Source: Dehalogenimonas etheniformans | GTDB lineage: Bacteria; Chloroflexota; Dehalococcoidia; Dehalococcoidales; Dehalococcoidaceae | Direction of reading: 5' to 3' | Assembly: GCF_014672715.2 (NCBI RefSeq) | Contig: NZ_CP058566.2 | Location: 1,736,001 to 1,800,000, forward strand | Length of the DNA: 64,000 nucleotides | Shown here: positions 8,217 through 18,127 of the stretch, piece after piece | Numbering within the stretch: the stretch's first letter is position 1 | Layout: the number at the start of each line of letters is the position of its first letter | Position numbers and translations under genes: made by a program | The notes under the pieces: model-generated | Database searches by the model: none | What the model was told of the DNA's origin: nothing | Seen by the model: only the letters and a program-made list of their open reading frames with translations

Positions 8217-8741
8217 TCAGCCCTTCTGCTGAATCGCCCGCATAAATGTCAGGAGCCCGCGCATTATTTCGAGCGGAGAAGGCGGATTGCCGGGGATCTT
8301 GAAGTCGACGGGAAGGATTTTGTCGGCGGCGCCGAGAACCGCATAGCTGTCTTTGACCAAACCGATGCCGCAAGCATCGTCACCCACCGCCACTACCCAA
8401 CCCGGTCGAGGCATGGCTTCGAAGGTCTTCCTGGCGGCTTCGGCTATGGCCAGCGTCACCGGCCCGGTTATGACGATGACATCGGCATGCCGGGGAGAGG
8501 CGACAAAACTGACCCCGAAGCGCTCGACGTCATAATGGGGTGTGCCGAGGTTATTGAGCTCGATCTCCGCCGAGTTATCGGAACCCGAATCCACCTCACG
8601 GATAGCCAAGCTTCGTCCAAACACACGGTCGATTTCTGATTTAAGCACAATCCCGACAGTTTCGAATTCCTCGTCCCGGAAGGCGACCGCGCCAGCGCGC
8701 TTGGGCGAGAGAATATTGTTTATCAGACTTTTTGTGCTCAT
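8217..8741 (-). CDS. NuoB/HyfI-like small subunit lacking all cluster cysteines
   Basis: Last gene of the six-gene membrane-complex operon. The fold is clearly that of the 20-kDa NuoB/HycG/HyfI subunit: RSLAIREVDSGS at 43-54, VERFGVSFVASPRHADV at 72-88, VAVGDDACG at 117-125 and PVDFKIPGNPPSP at 144-156. In active relatives the four [4Fe-4S] ligands are C, C, C, C at the positions here occupied by D55, A58, D122 and N152. The proximal/N2 cluster therefore cannot be bound in the usual way. The rest is not decayed, which argues for a retained structural or conformational role rather than a pseudogene. It overlaps the large-subunit gene by four bases. Confidence 0.9.
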   Translation of the reverse strand: MSTKSLINNILSPKRAGAVAFRDEEFETVGIVLKSEIDRVFGRSLAIREVDSGSDNSAEIELNNLGTPHYDVERFGVSFVASPRHADVIVITGPVTLAIAEAARKTFEAMPRPGWVVAVGDDACGIGLVKDSYAVLGAADKILPVDFKIPGNPPSPLEIMRGLLTFMRAIQQKG

Positions 8742-10312
8742 AGATCATTGCCCGCGTATGATAAGTTCAGACTCTTGTTGATGAGAGGGAAGTCCGGCAC
8801 GATATTGCCAATGACCGCGTGTTGAATGGCCAGCCAGTTACTGAAGGAGGACGTCCTGACCTTCCAGCGGTCAACTCGTCCGTCTTTGAGGCAGACCCAA
8901 TTCAAGTTCTGCCCTCTTGCAGCTTCAACCAGCGACAATGCATACCCGCTTTCCGGCCGGCAATCAACTCTCACCGGACCGGCTTGGGTTTTGGTAATAA
9001 TGTCCCCGATCAGACGTAGCGATTCTTCAATTTCACCAGCTTTAACCTGGAACCGACTCAGGACATCGCCGGAATCCCCGATCTCAACCTCAGGCTTGAA
9101 CTCCTCATATAATCCATAGGGGTGATCGACCCGGGTATCAATAACCGTCCCGGAGGCGCGGGCGGTCGGTCCCGTAAGGTTTAGCGGCGCAACAAGTTCG
9201 CGCTTCACGATGCCGGTGGTTTCAAAGCGGTCTATTACCCAAGCGGAATCATAAATTCCGTCAAGAGCCTGGTTGAAGCGGTTTGAAAAGCAAAGGGTGT
9301 ATTCTTTCAGATCTTCAAGGTGTTCGTGCGATAAATCCCGGGCGCAGCCGCCCGGCACAATGAAACCCTTGAGAAACCGGGAACCGGTCAATTCAGCGTT
9401 CCAGCGCATTATCTCCTCGCGGAGGACGAAGAAAGGAGCCGCCCCAACCGGATAAGCCACATCCACCGACATTCCGGCCAGGTCGCCGAGGTGGGAGTAG
9501 ACCCGCTCGAGCTCGAGCACGATCATCCGCAACTCCCATCCACGCCGCGGCACATTCACGCCGGCGATGCATTCGACCGCCATGGCGAAGCCGCAGGCGT
9601 TAACCGCGCTTTCGTCGCCCGAGACCGTCTCCGCCAGTTTCAATGCTTCATCAGTGGTTTTCCCCTCAGCCAGTTTCTCTATACCGCGATGTTTCCAGAA
9701 ATGTCTGATCTCCAGGTTGAAAATGGTTTCGCCGATAACGCTGAACCTGAAATGACCGGGTTCGATGATACCGGCGTGGACTGGTCCCACCGGGATCTGG
9801 TAAACGCCCTCACCTGTGATCTCTTTAAACCGGTACTCCCGCGCCGGAGTGATTTTGGCGGATTCAGGACGGTGGCCATCGAAAGATTTCAAGAGCGGAT
9901 GAAAATCATCCGCGTAAGCCTCGTGGAGAAACAATCTGCGGGTATCGAACGAACCGGTGAATTCGATGCCAAAACCGTCGGCGATTTCTCGCTGGAAGTA
10001 GCTGGCGATGGGGTATTCAGAAGCTATGGAAATCGCCCGGTTGCCCACCAGCCTTACCTCAAGGACGAAGAGGTCCCTGGCGCCACGCCATTCGAAGCAA
10101 TAGAACAAGGTGAAACCGTCGTTTGTAAAATCCTGGGCCGCCCAGAGACCGATCAACAGCACGTCCTGCTGTTTTTTCAATAAAGCAACGGCTTCAACCA
10201 GAGCCACAACGCTGACTGACAAGTGAGTTTCACCGCTGGATCCTTTGCGGCTGCGGCTATCGAAACCCTTGTTATAGAGGTGTTGTTCAACCACAGATAT
10301 CAGATTCTGCAT
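8738..10312 (-). CDS. NuoCD/HyfG-like large subunit without nickel ligands
   Basis: A 524-residue fusion of a NuoC-like N-terminal domain (about 1-150, including YFQREIADGFGIEF) and a NuoD/HycE-like domain (about 170-524, with VGPVHAGIIEPGHFRF at 175-190). In [NiFe] hydrogenases this subunit binds nickel through an N-terminal CGxC and a C-terminal CxxC. Here these places read SGDE (231-234) and NKSLNLSYAGNDL at the very end, so no Ni-Fe centre can form. It resembles the energy-converting hydrogenase-related (Ehr) complexes described as intermediates between complex I and group 4 hydrogenases. The gene is 3 bp from its upstream neighbour. Confidence 0.9.
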   Translation of the reverse strand: MQNLISVVEQHLYNKGFDSRSRKGSSGETHLSVSVVALVEAVALLKKQQDVLLIGLWAAQDFTNDGFTLFYCFEWRGARDLFVLEVRLVGNRAISIASEYPIASYFQREIADGFGIEFTGSFDTRRLFLHEAYADDFHPLLKSFDGHRPESAKITPAREYRFKEITGEGVYQIPVGPVHAGIIEPGHFRFSVIGETIFNLEIRHFWKHRGIEKLAEGKTTDEALKLAETVSGDESAVNACGFAMAVECIAGVNVPRRGWELRMIVLELERVYSHLGDLAGMSVDVAYPVGAAPFFVLREEIMRWNAELTGSRFLKGFIVPGGCARDLSHEHLEDLKEYTLCFSNRFNQALDGIYDSAWVIDRFETTGIVKRELVAPLNLTGPTARASGTVIDTRVDHPYGLYEEFKPEVEIGDSGDVLSRFQVKAGEIEESLRLIGDIITKTQAGPVRVDCRPESGYALSLVEAARGQNLNWVCLKDGRVDRWKVRTSSFSNWLAIQHAVIGNIVPDFPLINKSLNLSYAGNDL

Positions 10313-10315
10313 ATG

Positions 10316-11788
10316 CTACAAACCCAGGTCCGAAACGATGGTGTTCAGAGTCGTATTCAGCCATCCGGGGAGGTAGACGCCGAGGGCAAACAAGCCGATT
10401 AAAACCGCCACTATGGGAGCTTTCATCGCCAGGGGTGTTATATAGGGCTGGATAGTCTCGTCATCCGGCTGGGAAAATGCCCGCACCAGGTAATAGCCAA
10501 AACCCGCCGCCACCAGCAAAAAGCCAGCCAAAACAGCGATGAACAAAGGCAAAGCCTGAGAAGCCATGACCGACAGGACATTGAACTTTGCCAAAAATAC
10601 CGGCAGAGTCGGCGTGCCTACGGCGGCTGCTGAGCCGAGGATTAAACCCCAGGCCGCCAATGGCTGCAGCCTGAACGGACTTTTCACGGCAAAGAACTTG
10701 TTGGAATTGTACTGGCGGTGGAAAATGCCCGCGGAGAAGAATAGCAAGGCTTTAACCAGTGCATTGCCGGCTTTGTGAAACAGTGCCCAGAACAGAGCTA
10801 TCGGGGAACCCAAACCTATCGCGATAAGTATCAGTCCCGCCTGTTCCACGCCAGAAAAGGCGATGACCTTCTTAGTATTGGTTCGAGCGATCAAAGCTAA
10901 GGCGGCCACGAAAATGCTGACGGCTCCGAATGTTATCAAAAAGGGGTTCAGAAAACTATCGTCGCCAGCCCGGTGCCCGATGGCGTATAGCCGGATGATG
11001 GCGTAAAGTCCGAGATTGAGTACGGCACCGGAAATGACGGCTACCACCGATGGTGCCCTGACATAGACCGTGGGCAGCCAAGTATGGAAGGGGACGATAG
11101 CCGACTTGGCAGCGAAGCCGATAAACAGAAGCACGAAGGCAAAGGTATAGAGCTTAGGGGGGATGGCGGAGGCTGCCGACATCAGGTCGGTCCAATTGAG
11201 GGTACCTCCCGGAACTGCGGAGCGCGATAGGGCGAACAGGACGATGACGCCGATGAAAGCGAATAGCATGGCCGTCGACGTCACGAAAACGTACTTTAGC
11301 GCTGCGGTGATGTTCTCCCTGGCTTTTAACGTTACCAGGAGAACGACCGAGAACAGCGTGGAAAGCTCTGCAAAGATCCACATCAGCGCGATGTTGTTGG
11401 CCAAAAAGCCCATGACCAGGACTAGTGGCAACAGGGCAAAAGCACCGTAAAACAGGCCAAGAAGCGACCTCTCGATCTCCCCTCGCTCCAGGAGTGAAGC
11501 CAGGTAGCCACGGGAATAAACCGCCGATAAAAGAAAGAGCACGGTGGTGATCAATATCTCGTAAGCGCCGAAAGTATCAGCAAAAAGGTAGTGATTGCCC
11601 ACCAGAAAACGCGGAAGGTCGGACACCGCAAGCCACACCGCCAGACCCAGATAAACGACCGACTCGGCGATGAGCAGGCTGTTGAGCAAGCGTCCATCGG
11701 TCTGGGGATGGAAACGTCCCAGTAAGAACGACACCGCGGCAATTATCACCGCCGGCGCGGCAAACCCGACTATGATCATGAAATCCAT
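10316..11788 (-). CDS. Proton-translocating antiporter-like subunit (HyfF/NuoN type)
   Basis: A 490-residue membrane protein with about 14 predicted helices, of the Mrp-antiporter/NuoLMN superfamily. The signature FHTWLPTVYVRAPS is in the middle, followed by ALFHKAGNALVKALLFFSAG, which contains the lysine of the proton channel. Conserved acidic and lysine residues of the channel appear kept, unlike the metal ligands of the soluble subunits. Its ATG and the upstream gene's TGA share the sequence TGATG at 11788. Confidence 0.9.
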   Translation of the reverse strand: MDFMIIVGFAAPAVIIAAVSFLLGRFHPQTDGRLLNSLLIAESVVYLGLAVWLAVSDLPRFLVGNHYLFADTFGAYEILITTVLFLLSAVYSRGYLASLLERGEIERSLLGLFYGAFALLPLVLVMGFLANNIALMWIFAELSTLFSVVLLVTLKARENITAALKYVFVTSTAMLFAFIGVIVLFALSRSAVPGGTLNWTDLMSAASAIPPKLYTFAFVLLFIGFAAKSAIVPFHTWLPTVYVRAPSVVAVISGAVLNLGLYAIIRLYAIGHRAGDDSFLNPFLITFGAVSIFVAALALIARTNTKKVIAFSGVEQAGLILIAIGLGSPIALFWALFHKAGNALVKALLFFSAGIFHRQYNSNKFFAVKSPFRLQPLAAWGLILGSAAAVGTPTLPVFLAKFNVLSVMASQALPLFIAVLAGFLLVAAGFGYYLVRAFSQPDDETIQPYITPLAMKAPIVAVLIGLFALGVYLPGWLNTTLNTIVSDLGL

Positions 11789-12465
11789 CAGTCTTCAGAC
11801 TCCAGGCCGAGCTGGCTCAACCGCTTGTGAAAGGCTTCAACCGAAGAATCTATGCCGAAAGCGAGAACCGTAGACAGGACGATGATCATCAATAAGTCAA
11901 CCACGATCAAAACCTCGATGATGAAGGGCATTTCGGCAATAAAGAGTGAAAACAGCAGCACGCCGTTCTCCATGGTGAGATAACCGATGATCTTGGTGAC
12001 AACCTTACGGCGGCTCATCACGACTAGCATGCCCATGAGCGCCAGCGATACACCGATCACCGCTCCGAGAAGGAACAACGGACCGACCGAAAGTGAAGCC
12101 GAGAACACGTTGAATGCTGTGTAGACGACGAAAAACAGAGCCGCCGAGAGCATGATGGAGCCTATCGGCGTCAAATAACGGAACTCCAGGTCGCGCTTGA
12201 TGGGCATCACCGCCAGAAGGCGGCGCAGGAACATGGGGATGATGATCACCTTGGACAATATTGTGAGCAGCGCCATCAGAAGCAGGCTCAAGGTCGCCTC
12301 GCGGGAGAACAGGACCAAAGCGATCGCCGCGAGTATACCCGACTGCAACGCATAAATCGAGAAAAGCGATGTTAAAGACCGCTGAGTGATAATCAGGGCG
12401 GCGCTGCCGATCAAGAATACCAGTAATATCTTGATGATGTCATCGCCGAACAGCATATCTGTCAT
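11788..12465 (-). CDS. HyfE-like small membrane subunit (NuoK-like)
   Basis: A 225-residue integral membrane protein with about six helices, equivalent to HyfE/NuoK-type subunits that sit between the antiporter-like modules and the NuoH-like subunit. Charged residues inside helices include E in the segment TMENGVLLFSLFIAEMPFIIEV. It overlaps both neighbours by a few bases, as expected for a tightly coupled membrane-complex operon. Confidence 0.85.
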   Translation of the reverse strand: MTDMLFGDDIIKILLVFLIGSAALIITQRSLTSLFSIYALQSGILAAIALVLFSREATLSLLLMALLTILSKVIIIPMFLRRLLAVMPIKRDLEFRYLTPIGSIMLSAALFFVVYTAFNVFSASLSVGPLFLLGAVIGVSLALMGMLVVMSRRKVVTKIIGYLTMENGVLLFSLFIAEMPFIIEVLIVVDLLMIIVLSTVLAFGIDSSVEAFHKRLSQLGLESED

Positions 12466-13400
12466 GCCAGCAACTCAAAGACAATAGTAGCGAAAGAGAA
12501 AAACAGCGCCAGGATAAAAAAGCTGGGCAGGCGGAACAACCTGATCTTGGCCATCATCGATTCAAATACCCCGACGACAATGGAGAAAATCATCACTTTG
12601 GCCGTAAAACTCACTATCGACACGATAATCGGAACGACCCCCACATTCGCCGCAAGACCGACGGGCAAAATAATGTTGATCGAAAGCGCCATGAGGATGG
12701 TCTGCTTGATGCCCTGCGATAGTTCCATGAGGGCCAGCTTGGGCCCGGTCTGCTCGAGAATCATAGCCTCGTGAATCATGGTGAGTTCAAGATGTGTTTC
12801 CGGGTTATCCACCGGGACACGGGCAGTCTCGACGATGATGACGATGAATAGCGAAAACGCCACCAGGATGAGGGTGGGGTACTGGGAAATCGATCCGTTC
12901 AGGGTTGTCGCAAACATCTCAGGGATATCGGTAGATTTGAGTACAAACGCGAGAGCCGCGACCGAGGTAATGGTCACCGGCTCGATAATGGCAGACAGGC
13001 TCATTTCACGGGAAGATCCCATACCGCCGAAGGTCGACCCGGCGTCCAAACCGGCCAGTGCCACAAAGAATTTCGCCGTCACCATAAGGTATAAGAATAA
13101 AATGATGTTACCGATCCCCGAAACATCCGGGAGGAAAACCATAGGCACCATCACCGAAGCAGCCAGCAGGAATCCGATATTCAGATACGGCGCCAGGCGC
13201 ATGATAAACGAGGAATTTTGAGAGTAGACAATCTCCTTCTTAAACAGCTTGAACAGGTTGTAGTAACCCTGAAGGAGCGGAGGGCCGATCCTGCCTTGAG
13301 AGTAGGCTTTCACCTTTTTTACCAGGGTCATGGCCAATGGCGATAGAGCCACCACGAAAATGGTATTCAACAAGAGATAAAGAGCAGTGTTCAAGATCAC
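12462..13400 (-). CDS. HyfC/NuoH-like membrane subunit
   Basis: A 312-residue eight-helix subunit that joins the soluble arm to the membrane arm in complex I and group 4 hydrogenases. The cytoplasmic loop QGRIGPPLLQGYYNLFKLF (about 35-53) and the acidic loop PVDNPETHLELTMIHE (about 194-209) are the family landmarks and contain the conserved glutamates used in quinone or proton coupling. The start overlaps the stop of the HyfB-like gene (ATGA). Confidence 0.92.
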   Translation of the reverse strand: MILNTALYLLLNTIFVVALSPLAMTLVKKVKAYSQGRIGPPLLQGYYNLFKLFKKEIVYSQNSSFIMRLAPYLNIGFLLAASVMVPMVFLPDVSGIGNIILFLYLMVTAKFFVALAGLDAGSTFGGMGSSREMSLSAIIEPVTITSVAALAFVLKSTDIPEMFATTLNGSISQYPTLILVAFSLFIVIIVETARVPVDNPETHLELTMIHEAMILEQTGPKLALMELSQGIKQTILMALSINIILPVGLAANVGVVPIIVSIVSFTAKVMIFSIVVGVFESMMAKIRLFRLPSFFILALFFSFATIVFELLA

Positions 13401-15328
13401 AGCAGTTGCCCAACCGCCAGTAAGATGATCACGATGACTGCGAAAACGTACATGACATTGGCATCAAGGTCAACGTTATGGAGCGCGGAGACCCATGACG
13501 CAATGCGCTTGACGAACAACGCTATGGGCAAATAGATTCTCTCCTCAAAGAATTGCAGGGTATGAACTTCGCCCGAACCGCCAGAAACGATCGATTTATC
13601 CTTATCGGCGAACTCCCGCTTACCGATCTTCCTGGTGCGGAAAATGGGACTGAATATCGTGATGATAGGTTCGGAGAATCCGGAGGCGGTGTACTCCATG
13701 CGGCTTGTCTGGGTATGGATGCCGCAACCCCAAGTTTCTGAGATACGGGCTCTGGTCTCCATCCGCCTGACGGCTAGTACCGCCAGACCGAAAACCAGAA
13801 GAGCCACCAGGCTCACGGGCAGGACATTGGGCACCGGCAAGTCCAGACCGACAACTTTAAGAATCTGATAGCTTAAGACACCGAGGACAACACAGGCCGC
13901 CGCCAGGATGCCGGGGCCGACAAGCATCGCCCTCGGCGCCTCATGGGCATGTTCCGCTTCATGCGACCTGGGAAGTGCCAGGAAGACCGCGCCGAACGCC
14001 TTCACGAAACAGGCGGCAGCCAGGGCGCTCATCAACGCAAAACCGGCCAGCGCGGTGAACAACAACACGGCCGTCAAGGGACTGGGCACCTGGAAAGCGC
14101 CGAGGTAAGCCTGGAAAAGCATCACCTCCGAAGCGAAGCCGTTTAAAGGAGGCAGCGCCGAAATGGCGACCGAGCCGATCAAGAAAATCACCGCCGTCGC
14201 CGGCATGGTTTTTACAAGACCGCCCATTTCCTCGATGTTACGGGTATGGGTGGCAGCTACCACTGAACCGGCGGTCATAAACAGCAGGCTCTTGAATATC
14301 GCGTGGTTTAGAATGTGGAACAAAGCTCCAAACAGGGAAAGGTCGGCCAGAGTGCTCAAATTGTAATGGCTGAAAATGACCCACAAGCCGAGGCCGACGA
14401 CGATGATCCCGATGTTCTCGATCGAATGAAATGCCAGTAATTTCTTGAGATCATGTTCTTTGAGGGCATAGATGACGCCAAGAACCGCCGAGACGGTGCC
14501 GAAGACCAACAATAGTGTCCCCCACCAAAGTTCAGGCGACAGGACATCGAGCAGGATTCGAACCAAGCCATAGATCGCCACTTTGATCATGACACCGGAC
14601 ATCAGGGCAGAGATGTTCGATGGAGCGGCGGCATGGGCGAAGGGCAGCCATTTATGGAAAGGTATGATTCCGGCTTTGGTGCCAAAGCCGATAAAGAACG
14701 CGCTAAAAATAATTCCGGCCGTCGAGAGGGTCAGTCCGCCGGCAGACGTGATATCGAAGGTCCCGGTGTACCGGTGTAATAAAAGAGCACCAAGCAAGAG
14801 GAAGAGAGTCGAAAATTGGGTCATCACCAAGTAATAAATCCCGGCTTTGGCAGTTTCTGCCTTTTCCCGGTCAAACATCACCAGAAATAAAGATGACAGC
14901 GACATCAGTTCCCAGAAAAAGATAAAGGCGAAGAAATTGGCCGAAGCCACGACCAGCACCATAGAAAGGATGAATACCGACATCGCCGCCACCGACATGT
15001 CGCGGCGGGACTGGCTGCCGGTATGCTCGACGTAACGAAGCGAGTAGACGGCGACGCAGGCCGCCACCGAACTGATGATCAGTATGAAAAATGCTGCCAG
15101 ACGATCCAGGTGGAAGGAGATGCCTAGCTGCGGTGTAACCTGATGAAGCTGGAATGTAAGGTCGGAGTTCTCAGCAAGGACGATACCGGAAGCCGCTATC
15201 AAGGAGAATGCGCCGGCTATCACAAGCCCCAGAGCAACGCGCCGTCTGCCGCCCCGGTTCCCGGTGATCGCCGCTGCCGCGGCCAACACCAGAGCCGCCC
15301 CGCCGCCGAGGAATAGCCCCTCTATCAC
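13397..15328 (-). CDS. HyfB-like antiporter subunit
   Basis: First gene of the complex: 643 residues with about 16 helices and a hydrophilic C-terminal extension. It is a NuoL/HyfB-type antiporter-like subunit. The helix with the channel lysine reads SALMSGVMIKVAIYGLV, and the second half-channel motif reads HILNHAIFKSLLFMTAGSV. The start is GTG at 15328. A strong sigma-70 promoter and a leader hairpin lie just upstream. No HyfA or HyfH ferredoxin gene and no maturation protease gene is present in the operon. Confidence 0.92.
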   Translation of the reverse strand: MIEGLFLGGGAALVLAAAAAITGNRGGRRRVALGLVIAGAFSLIAASGIVLAENSDLTFQLHQVTPQLGISFHLDRLAAFFILIISSVAACVAVYSLRYVEHTGSQSRRDMSVAAMSVFILSMVLVVASANFFAFIFFWELMSLSSLFLVMFDREKAETAKAGIYYLVMTQFSTLFLLLGALLLHRYTGTFDITSAGGLTLSTAGIIFSAFFIGFGTKAGIIPFHKWLPFAHAAAPSNISALMSGVMIKVAIYGLVRILLDVLSPELWWGTLLLVFGTVSAVLGVIYALKEHDLKKLLAFHSIENIGIIVVGLGLWVIFSHYNLSTLADLSLFGALFHILNHAIFKSLLFMTAGSVVAATHTRNIEEMGGLVKTMPATAVIFLIGSVAISALPPLNGFASEVMLFQAYLGAFQVPSPLTAVLLFTALAGFALMSALAAACFVKAFGAVFLALPRSHEAEHAHEAPRAMLVGPGILAAACVVLGVLSYQILKVVGLDLPVPNVLPVSLVALLVFGLAVLAVRRMETRARISETWGCGIHTQTSRMEYTASGFSEPIITIFSPIFRTRKIGKREFADKDKSIVSGGSGEVHTLQFFEERIYLPIALFVKRIASWVSALHNVDLDANVMYVFAVIVIILLAVGQLL

Positions 15329-15903: not shown

Positions 15904-17541
15904 CTAGACGGCAGTGGTAACGGGCTCCGTTTCCGCCACCCGTACGCGATCTGCGATCGAAGTGAGAAATTCGACGATCGAATCTGAGGGATTGATGTGC
16001 GGCGGTTTCAAATGGGCCAGTTCGGCCCCGCTGGCCTGCTGCTTCATTTTGTACAATTTGAAAGCGCCATGGGGCAGGACAGTGGCATCCATCGGCTGCA
16101 GGCCGGTGAACTCTTCCAATTCGGCGTAAGGCGTGTCCAACTTTTTTAACTCAGAATGGATCGCCGACGCCACCTCCTCGGCCGACCTGGTTTCCTGCCG
16201 TTTCAGTTCGACATAAACGTGAAGCTCGGGCTTATCGCCGACGATCTCCTTGCGGGCAGTCCAATCTTCATATTCTACGCCGGAGTTTTCCAGCGCCTGC
16301 CAGATAACCTTTTCCGACAACCTGGTGAAACCCGCGATATCTATCTGGTCATCAAGCCTGGTCAGGAAGCGCATCTGCGGGATGTCGATATTCAGTGTGT
16401 CGTTCCGGAGAGCCGTTATCTCAACCAGGTGTCCCAAGCGGTATCTGACAAAGGCGCCTCCGTGAAGATTGGTGATCACCAATTCATACTTTCCCGGTTT
16501 GAGCTCGTCCATAAGGAAAGTCTCGGGTTGGTATGCCGAATCCTGCCAGCACTTGACGGCTTCGGCTTCGGGGATGAATTCGAAAAAGTTCATGTGGGGG
16601 ACGAAGGTCATACCCTCATGGTCCCAGGTCTGCATGGCGATTACAGGCGCTTCGGTGCAGCCGTGGAAGTCCAAGGGATACTGGCCCCACATGTCTTTGA
16701 TCTTTTCACGGAAGACCTCACCGTCGATACCGTAGGTGATCAGGCCTTTGAGTTTCCACAGGTCTTTGGGCAGCATCTGACGCCCAGCCAGTTTTGAGAC
16801 GACCTTACCCTTGACCAGACGCGCCAGCGTCCGGGGACGCTTCAACAATTTCTTGATATCTACCGAGCCGCCGCTATGCTTGAACCGCTCGCCGATGGCA
16901 TAAGCCACACTGGACATAGATAGAACCCAATCCATGCCATGGTCCAGTCCCATCTTGAACCCGGTGTTGATGCGTTCTTCAAACGAGGCCTGCTCCGCTT
17001 CCGACACCGGTGGCAGGAAATCGAACATCTCGTGGGGGAAGACACGAGTCATCGTGCCGGTGGCGTAGGGTGGCGGAGCCATCCCGTACAGGACGCGGTC
17101 ACCGGGGCGGATCTTGATGTCGTATCTCTTTGTAGCCGCAGAAAAGAAAGACAGGGCGAACACCAGAGCCTCAGTTTCGTCAAGCATCCTCGCGGTCACC
17201 GGCGCCCAGCGGTAAGAGTATTCCGCGCTCTTCCCTGAGGTGTACTGCCAAAGGATAGGTTTGCGGGGCAGCACCTCCCAACGGCGCTTCAAAAGGTAAG
17301 GGGCATAGTCCTCGTAGCTGGTCAACGGCACCATCTTGCGGAACTCTTCAACGTTCGTCGGATTGGCACCCTTTAAAATGCCCTTGCCTAATTGGCAATT
17401 TTTCAGGAGTTCGAGTTGCTCCATAAGCAGCCTCTTCTGGATACCCATGAACTCCTGGAGCGAAAGGTCGATGAAGCCGCAGCAGCGGTCCCACATCTCA
17501 TCGTATTTACCCTGGCGGAATAGTTCTGAAAGCTGGCTCAC
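15904..17541 (-). CDS. GH3-like adenylate-forming enzyme
   Basis: A 545-residue protein of the GH3 auxin-responsive superfamily, which adenylates carboxylates and often conjugates them to amino acids. The ATP-loop counterpart reads QYTSGKSAEYSYRWAPVT, and further family features are FHGCTEAPV and the C-terminal PHGAFKLYK. The GTG at 17541 is preferred: it has GGAGG nine bases upstream and does not overlap the preceding gene. The first in-frame start at 17598 would overlap that gene by over 50 bases. The substrate is unknown. The upstream membrane methyltransferase-like gene is probably cotranscribed. Confidence 0.85.
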   Translation of the reverse strand: MSQLSELFRQGKYDEMWDRCCGFIDLSLQEFMGIQKRLLMEQLELLKNCQLGKGILKGANPTNVEEFRKMVPLTSYEDYAPYLLKRRWEVLPRKPILWQYTSGKSAEYSYRWAPVTARMLDETEALVFALSFFSAATKRYDIKIRPGDRVLYGMAPPPYATGTMTRVFPHEMFDFLPPVSEAEQASFEERINTGFKMGLDHGMDWVLSMSSVAYAIGERFKHSGGSVDIKKLLKRPRTLARLVKGKVVSKLAGRQMLPKDLWKLKGLITYGIDGEVFREKIKDMWGQYPLDFHGCTEAPVIAMQTWDHEGMTFVPHMNFFEFIPEAEAVKCWQDSAYQPETFLMDELKPGKYELVITNLHGGAFVRYRLGHLVEITALRNDTLNIDIPQMRFLTRLDDQIDIAGFTRLSEKVIWQALENSGVEYEDWTARKEIVGDKPELHVYVELKRQETRSAEEVASAIHSELKKLDTPYAELEEFTGLQPMDATVLPHGAFKLYKMKQQASGAELAHLKPPHINPSDSIVEFLTSIADRVRVAETEPVTTAV

Positions 17542-17545
17542 CTTC

Positions 17546-18127
17546 TTAGGCCTCCGGTAATTTATTTCTTCTAAAGCCTTCAAAGAAGGCAGAAACACTA
17601 TTTCGATTAGGCACGATCATCGGGGTAGTCTTCTGGTAAATGGCATAACCGGAAAACATGTGCGGGAAGATTTTCCGGTCCTGAACGTAAACCAGGATCA
17701 GGGACAGGATTGTCCAGGCTATACCGGCTTCAACTGCCAGTATTGAACGAGAACCCAGCGCCAAGCCGGTCATGGAAAGGGCGAAGAACAATAGCCAGGG
17801 ATGGCGGACGAGGGCATAGACCCCGCGAGTTACCAATTGGCCACTGCTCCCGGGTTTGATGTAAGTTCTGACCGCGGGCAGGGCGAAATAGAGCGAGTAA
17901 ACCGTGAGCCAAGCTGACACGCCCATGATCGCCCAACCGGCTATTGAAGCCCACTCAGGTAATCCGAATTTCCGGCAGGCGATGGCAACCATCGTGGCGG
18001 AGACAGCAATCAGCATTGTCCCAAAAAACGAAAGAGCCGGTTTGATGAAGGGCGCCTTTTTTATGGACGCAAAGTCCAGAAGGTGCATTAGCAGAAACCC
18101 GGCGGCGCCCAGCAGAATGTATGTCAT
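17546..18127 (-). CDS. Membrane protein of the isoprenylcysteine/phospholipid methyltransferase type
   Basis: A 193-residue protein with five or six hydrophobic segments. The stretch GQLVTRGVYALVRHPW at about residues 98-113 matches the conserved GxYxxxRHP core of ICMT/PEMT and NnrU-like membrane methyltransferases, which bind SAM at the membrane face. The second part of that motif is less clear, so activity is inferred. It precedes the GH3-like gene by 4 bp. A perfect palindrome at 18185-18203 lies about 58-76 bp upstream of its start. Confidence 0.7.
   Translation of the reverse strand: MTYILLGAAGFLLMHLLDFASIKKAPFIKPALSFFGTMLIAVSATMVAIACRKFGLPEWASIAGWAIMGVSAWLTVYSLYFALPAVRTYIKPGSSGQLVTRGVYALVRHPWLLFFALSMTGLALGSRSILAVEAGIAWTILSLILVYVQDRKIFPHMFSGYAIYQKTTPMIVPNRNSVSAFFEGFRRNKLPEA

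Follow-up and report, generated by a model that had tools for sequence, protein, structure and literature searches.

A hydrogenase-4-like operon of Dehalogenimonas etheniformans lacking the known ligands of both metal sites, possibly encoding a redox-silent, ion-coupled complex

A six-gene operon of the complex I/hydrogenase-4 type, found in the 64,000-nucleotide stretch of Dehalogenimonas etheniformans DNA analyzed here (the window), encodes a whole membrane arm and two soluble subunits, B and D, from which all eight known metal ligands, four for the [NiFe] centre and four for the proximal [4Fe-4S] cluster, are missing. The operon is maintained by strong selection in dehalogenating bacteria and in methanogenic archaea. 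Because the known metal sites for electrons have been lost and the ion-pumping machinery has been kept, the complex is probably engaged in a task different from the redox pumping performed by its relatives. The explanation we prefer, to which sequence comparison lends about an even chance, is that the operon would specify a redox-silent, ion-coupled complex, the former Fe-S pocket being now a conserved acidic, perhaps cation-binding, site.

The six ORFs are contiguous, reside on the minus strand (8217-15328) and follow the order A-C-E-F-D-B; Pfam and NCBIfam assign them to the HyfB, NuoH/HyfC, HyfE, HyfF, NuoC+NuoD and NuoB types, respectively. A (13397..15328, 643 aa; NCBIfam NF006418, 855 bits) is a HyfB/HycC-like antiporter-like subunit, C (12462..13400, 312 aa; Pfam NADHdh) a NuoH/HycD-like membrane anchor, E (11788..12465, 225 aa; NCBIfam NF008556, 8.9e-16) a HyfE-like small membrane subunit, and F (10316..11788, 490 aa; NCBIfam NF006427) a second, HyfF-like, antiporter-like subunit. 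D (8738..10312, 524 aa; Pfam 30 kDa and 49 kDa domains) is a fused NuoC+NuoD protein matching HycE at 4.5e-105, and B (8217..8741, 174 aa; Pfam Oxidored_q6) is NuoB/HycG-like, with an AF2 pLDDT of 90 and MbhJ (6cfw_J) as the best PDB fold. None of the operon genes encodes an electron-input subunit. The ferredoxin gene is absent from the operon, as the sequence-only reading had remarked, but this is not peculiar to the clade to which the operon belongs, since nearly all the cluster-keeping Ehr relatives examined lack it too; the absence is an older trait of this Ehr branch, separate from the erasure of the cluster, and a joint loss of ferredoxin and cluster is unsupported. No conserved neighbour genes hinting at function were found, the flanks differing in nearly every genus.

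Alignment of D to E. coli HycE places S231-G-D-E234 (9611..9622, minus strand) where HycE has CGIC, and S518-Y-A-G521 (8750..8761, minus strand) in place of the C-terminal CxxC (LNLSYAGND vs. LDPCYSCTD). The [NiFe] cysteines of HycE are hence represented by S231, E234, S518 and G521, and D lacks the [NiFe] ligands typical of group 4 enzymes. N516 occupies the position of the canopy Asp preceding the C-terminal motif (D529 in HycE; PMC9474812). In alignments of B to MbhJ and HycG, the four cluster cysteines are matched by D55, A58, D122 and N152, leaving no proximal [4Fe-4S] ligand of the group 4 type: D55 and A58 (8568..8579) lie in GSDNSAE, vs. GSCNxCE, D122 in GDDACG, where it is followed two residues later by a conserved cysteine, C124 (8370..8378 for both), and N152 (8286..8288) in PGNPP, vs. 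PGCPP, all on the minus strand. The SGDE motif, the missing C-terminal CxxC and the four changes in B had been read from the letters alone, and hold in the alignments. Only eight positions of B separate the clade from cluster-keeping Ehr complexes, and three of them are cluster ligand sites; in D, two residues of the former active site, E234 and N238, are among the separating positions, E234 being strictly conserved within the clade and replaced by H, N or T in cluster-keeping Ehr.

The membrane arm, described in the sequence-only reading as complete and with intact channel lysines, is so in the alignments. A retains TM5 Glu140, TM7 Lys218, Lys249, His338, His342, Lys346 and TM12 Glu401, as well as Cys535 of the ND3 loop (HycC alignment), F retains E141, K228, K306 and K346, and the E-channel acids of C (E132, E140, E191, E201, E205 and E211; HycD alignment) are invariant in the clade. 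The loops joining soluble and membrane arms are intact, as are the ion-path residues. The two antiporter-like subunits are of the MrpA/MrpD type, with the conserved Glu/Lys/His ion path; the six operon genes include one HyfE-like subunit, and none for the small Mrp subunits B, C, E, F and G.

The same pattern, i.e. D, any residue but Cys, D or E, and N or D at the four ligand sites, plus C124, was found in all of about 40 species inspected, so that sharing across related genomes, which had been put forward as a check, is verified. Carriers are Dehalococcoidia and archaea, including Methanosarcina- and Methanoregula-like genomes. Position 58 of B varies freely in the clade (A, T, V or P), and the order of the genes is strict. 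An identical pattern in every member inspected shows that the loss of cysteines is due neither to chance nor to error; a sequencing or assembly error is ruled out by its occurrence in many independent genomes, single-contig ones included. In one genome, A is interrupted by an in-frame stop close to its C-terminus, and the operon is missing from one genome of a congener. Purifying selection acts on each of the six genes (omega mostly 0.03-0.2). The dN/dS check confirms the earlier view that the operon is not decaying, and the fixed substitutions common to clade members rule out decay as well.

Trees of D and of B nest the clade within Ehr complexes (SH-aLRT 95-96), and its subunits are, like those of Ehr, of the group 4 type without [NiFe] ligands. 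Retention of the proximal [4Fe-4S] cluster, a property of the Ehr relatives examined here, does not extend to this clade. A second group of Chloroflexota complexes, called here group (i), has acidic residues at the same three cluster sites, and its complexes still have [NiFe] cysteines, together with a fused ferredoxin domain. This group lost its cluster ligands to acidic residues independently: a single shared loss, by descent or by exchange of the B subunit, fails the AU test both for D and for motif-masked B (p 4e-5 and 3e-4). HypD was undetectable in 6 of 8 group (i) genomes, and the [NiFe] cysteines may accordingly hold no NiFe centre.

Mrp antiporters and DabAB are examples of complex I relatives that work without performing redox chemistry themselves. 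According to the preferred explanation, the operon product would be an assembled machine of the complex I/hydrogenase-4 type turned redox-silent, in which the two antiporter-like subunits may still transport protons or cations, a substrate that we infer, as we do the direction of transport. The NuoB/NuoD-like cap would remain seated on the NuoH-like anchor via the conserved loops, and the electron site would have become an acidic pocket, presumably free of redox cofactor, lined by D55, D122, N/D152 and C124 of B, with E234 of D nearby, a geometry deduced from homology of the four ligand positions. Protons or a divalent cation are the most likely occupants of the pocket, and ion movement would be set or gated by their binding, or by chemistry at the site, instead of by electron transfer. 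The complex would act as an ion antiporter or channel under regulation; catalysis of a reaction that involves no redox change, for example the hydration of CO2, is a lesser possibility. Several points weigh against this explanation. Complexes of the second lineage have their acidic pocket placed between a ferredoxin domain and [NiFe] cysteines, where electron flow is expected; the operon carries no canonical Mrp Na+ subunits; and C124 could serve as a ligand. In addition, since cluster-keeping Ehr relatives also lack the ferredoxin gene, B itself may be the docking site of a soluble donor.

In the main rival, unlikely in our estimate, the carboxylates, the Asn and C124 would hold a redox cofactor, be it an Fe-S cluster of an unusual kind or iron in mono- or binuclear form, in a redox pump fed by a soluble donor on B. 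The sequence-only reading had concluded that no electron path would be left; the known ligands are indeed lost, but a conserved acidic set plus a cysteine took their place, and a cofactor held by other residues is possible, because these residues are fixed, hence non-random, and the same set evolved separately in complexes whose [NiFe] cysteines are retained alongside a fused ferredoxin domain. Fe-S clusters with a single Asp ligand are known, but we know of no cubane in which three of four cysteines are swapped for O or N ligands. The free variation of position 58 and the doubtful NiFe centre of group (i) further weaken this rival, and Pyrococcus MBS, which lost one ligand, retains three cysteines (PMC7684303).

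Non-redox chemistry is less probable still. Zn2+ or Mn2+ bound at the acidic/Cys site would support a hydration or hydrolysis, for instance of CO2, coupled to proton movement. CO2 uptake by complex I-type modules is established for cyanobacterial NDH-1MS and for DabAB, and the carriers of the clade, whose identity is inferred, are mostly CO2-dependent anaerobes; yet no conserved neighbour gene indicates CO2 chemistry, and sites of the carbonic anhydrase type normally have His ligands, none of which is found here. We regard as improbable a structural or chaperone-like role, in which a cysteine-free B/D cap would merely stabilize the antiporter arm and the pocket would bind nothing. Mrp-like membrane arms work without a NuoB/NuoD cap, but D55, D122, C124 and E234 are fixed and recur independently, which suggests a specific function of the pocket. 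That the operon is the relic of a decaying hydrogenase, as the truncated A and the operon-less congener might hint, is hardly credible given the omega values, the strict gene order and replacements identical over bacteria and archaea.

A broader proposal, somewhat more tentative than the preferred explanation itself, is that in one lineage of the complex I superfamily, spanning bacteria and archaea, the movement of ions may be coupled to an event other than redox chemistry, at an acidic site that grew out of the old Fe-S pocket, the replacement having been invented independently at least twice. How electron transfer is coupled to ion pumping in complex I is debated, and with a natural homologue that has pump and coupling loops but no known site for electrons, the requirements on the soluble arm can be tested directly. 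Genetics would be possible in Methanosarcina if it carries the operon, as Anderson et al. 2009 (PMC2686161) suggests. The Dehalococcoides "Hyc hydrogenase", counted as an electron-transfer enzyme, would need re-annotation, which bears on models of organohalide respiration.

Among known systems, respiratory complex I is recognized by the tandem cysteines of N2 in NuoB and the quinone-site His/Tyr in NuoD; B has no ligand cysteines, and D is most similar to HycE, not to NuoD. The Ehr complexes of CPR (PMC7304191) are alike in gene set and order, in a large subunit without [NiFe] ligands and in the SGD motif. Those compared here retain all four proximal [4Fe-4S] cysteines, of which this clade has none, and lack its E234 and N238. 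No description of cluster loss in such operons was found in the literature searched, the founding Ehr paper (Marreiros 2013) falling outside its scope. Loss of [NiFe] cysteines is already known for the large subunit of "Pmh", a putative membrane-bound hydrogenase likewise encoded by six genes (Mhun_1817-1822, with homologues in M. acetivorans and M. mazei), noted in 2009; the passage on Pmh in that paper (PMC2686161) mentions only these cysteines, and nothing on cluster ligands. Content and type of genome, though not locus tags, link Pmh to the loci studied here, and it very probably represents the archaeal members of the clade. The Dehalococcoides Hyc operon (PMC2930330, PMC8516407), of the group 4 type, comes from the same family as D. 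etheniformans and its product has been detected by proteomics (PMC6113397); it is listed as a hydrogenase, but the loci analyzed here lack metal ligands at both sites. E. coli formate hydrogenlyase/hydrogenase-4 (7z0s; PMC9474812), which among homologues of solved structure ranks first for A, C and D and second for B, has the [NiFe] site, the proximal cluster and ferredoxin subunits, all absent here, and shares coupling loops and E-channel with the operon. Pyrococcus MBS sulfane sulfur reductase (6u8y; PMC7684303) is also a complex I relative without a [NiFe] centre, but besides its three cluster cysteines possesses another two Fe-S clusters, in MbsN. Mrp antiporters lack NuoH, NuoB and NuoD subunits and have others not encoded in this operon, but their antiporter-like subunits are homologous to those described here, and work without redox chemistry.

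The operon comprises six genes on the minus strand, in the transcription order A (13397-15328), C (12462-13400), E (11788-12465), F (10316-11788), D (8738-10312) and B (8217-8741), assigned by profile to the HyfB, NuoH/HyfC, HyfE, HyfF, NuoC+NuoD and NuoB types, respectively; adjacent genes overlap or are separated by a few bases. The source genome (G000) is one contig of 2.07 Mb, with the window at C1:1736001-1800000. The operon is not the sole member of the superfamily there, the genome also encoding, near 524 kb, a group-4 hydrogenase large subunit in which both CxxC motifs are present and, near 769.6 kb, an ordinary NuoD. Upstream, a gene for a GH3-family protein (15904-17598) adjoins a phospholipid methyltransferase-like gene; the family is best known from plant acyl-acid-amido synthetases. 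No clue to function emerged from the flanking genes when the neighbourhoods of relatives were compared.

The known ligands of both metal sites are missing, as a sequence-only reading had proposed. Among solved structures D is closest to HycE from the E. coli formate hydrogenlyase (FHL), and in the alignment S231, E234, S518 and G521 occupy its [NiFe] ligand positions, N516 that of the canopy aspartate D529, which is reported to be invariant across hydrogenases and complex I (PMC9474812). In B, aligned to MbhJ and HycG, D55, A58, D122 and N152 replace the four proximal-cluster cysteines, C124 being the single cysteine left. The AlphaFold2 model of B is a confident NuoB fold (pLDDT 90) with MbhJ (6cfw_J) as top PDB match, and positions 55, 58, 122 and 152 should on this ground all still line one pocket.

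Contigs of relatives and whole-genome searches covered about 1,300 genomes. The window's clade, lacking all four cluster cysteines, includes about 23 species of the same class and archaeal members (18 matches in the phylum of locus L010, 3 in that of L009). Loss of the cysteines at the four sites is shared by bacteria and archaea alike: every B sequence inspected, a set leaving out a few matches (e.g. genomes G051, G985, G1043), has D55, A, V, T or P and never Cys at 58, D/E122, C124 and N/D152. D residue 234 is strictly E in the clade, archaeal additions included, and H, N or T in cluster-keeping Ehr complexes. Gene order is constant among relatives. Omega is 0.02-0.13 for the nearest congener pairs and below 0.2 in most others, with a few values of up to 0.34 where divergence is low. 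As dS comes close to saturation in several comparisons, the pairs of low divergence (L062/L063, L067/L068 and L067/L069) are the most trustworthy. Shared substitutions and low omega rule out decay, as anticipated. The operon is absent from the complete genome of a congener (G002, single contig, 1,686,510 bp), and is thus dispensable in that lineage. In genome G010 (locus L069, 15131-17062) an in-frame TAG interrupts the HyfB-like A gene 27 codons before its end; the remaining five genes are open.

A second cluster-less group is formed by eight Chloroflexota complexes (L112, L113, L122-L127), whose B subunits have an N-terminal ferredoxin domain, D/E55, D/E122, C124 and D152 (S in one), C58 being retained in some, and whose D subunits keep all four [NiFe] cysteines. 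In the D tree this group nests within complexes having both metal sites, the window's clade within cluster-keeping Ehr, also with more archaea added. A single clade of the two is rejected for D (p-AU 4.4e-5) and for B with ligand columns masked (p-AU 3.1e-4), values to be taken as indicative, the groups being defined by the cluster-less trait itself and not named in advance. Cluster loss in the second group is independent, and this group may have two origins (p-AU 0.06). Where the two groups converge is in having acidic residues at positions 55, 122 and 152; Cys124, found also in several cluster-keeping relatives, may therefore be ancestral. HypD had no match in six of the eight genomes of the second group, some about 94-96% complete, and the [NiFe] cysteines may hence hold something else; likewise, among five related cluster-keeping genomes, four show no HypD. 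In L113 the stretch 7-2198, a few kb ahead of the group's operon, holds genes for a formate/nitrite transporter and a SLAC1-type anion channel.

The antiporter channel lysines, thought intact, are so. Glu140, Lys218, Lys249, Lys295, Glu304, His338, His342, Lys346 and Glu401 of A are invariant in the 13 clade sequences aligned; Lys218 is at the TM7 lysine position, where FHL itself has Leu208, and Glu401 aligns with HycC Glu391. The ND3-loop cysteine, A Cys535 (HycC Cys537), is invariant (alignment A3). F retains Glu141, Lys228, Lys306 and Lys346, histidine 342 being variable, and in C residues E132, E140, E191, E201, E205, E211 and E216 are invariant in the clade. The D beta1-beta2 loop motif GPVHAGIIEPGHFRF is retained in most members, its glutamate lost in L009-L011. 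With these residues conserved, the ion-movement and arm-joining machinery looks functional, the electron site being gone. Given the conservation of A, C, F and the interface, and the replacement of all redox ligands by the same acidic residues, we favour a redox-silent ion-coupled complex, a reading about as apt to hold as to fail: the membrane arm and interface would still serve ion movement, and the old electron site would have become an acidic pocket in B binding a proton or cation.

The main rival, that the pocket holds a redox cofactor without cysteine ligation, is rather unlikely, and keeps its place because the second group retains a ferredoxin domain next to its acidic pocket, and because cluster-keeping Ehr relatives do without ferredoxin genes as well, so that B could serve as docking site for an external donor. 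The operon does lack a ferredoxin gene, as noted from the sequence, but so do most cluster-keeping Ehr relatives, and the absence is not specific. At L164 12047-12397 and L165 11828-12586, archaeal Ehr-type operons pair B with a two-cluster ferredoxin, as a separate gene or a fusion; both retain the proximal cluster cysteines and, in the D tree, group with the Ehr complexes that keep the cluster. A third option, hydration of CO2 or metal chemistry of a similar kind, is improbable.

As far as the accessible text of the sources goes, Ehr complexes lack [NiFe] ligands and are of unknown function (PMC10284858, PMC7304191, PMC6349859); Anderson et al. (2009) describe a six-gene operon of Methanospirillum hungatei whose large subunit lacks the [NiFe] cysteines, with homologues in Methanosarcina acetivorans and M. 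mazei (PMC2686161); Hyc is counted among five hydrogenases of Dehalococcoides (PMC2930330, PMC8516407), and its proteins were detected in strain CBDB1 (PMC6113397), the accessible part of the CBDB1 complexome (PMC6005880) not reporting this complex. The same portions of the literature on Ehr, Hyc, MBS and the methanogen operon make no mention of proximal-cluster loss; [NiFe] loss is already known, and that of the cluster seems not to have been described in the literature reached. MBS, a relative of known structure without [NiFe], keeps three cluster cysteines (PMC7684303), whereas B in the window's clade keeps none of four. The operon shares with Ehr the absence of [NiFe] ligands, but the Ehr relatives compared keep the cluster which the window's clade lacks; it is a real, widespread and conserved Ehr variant.
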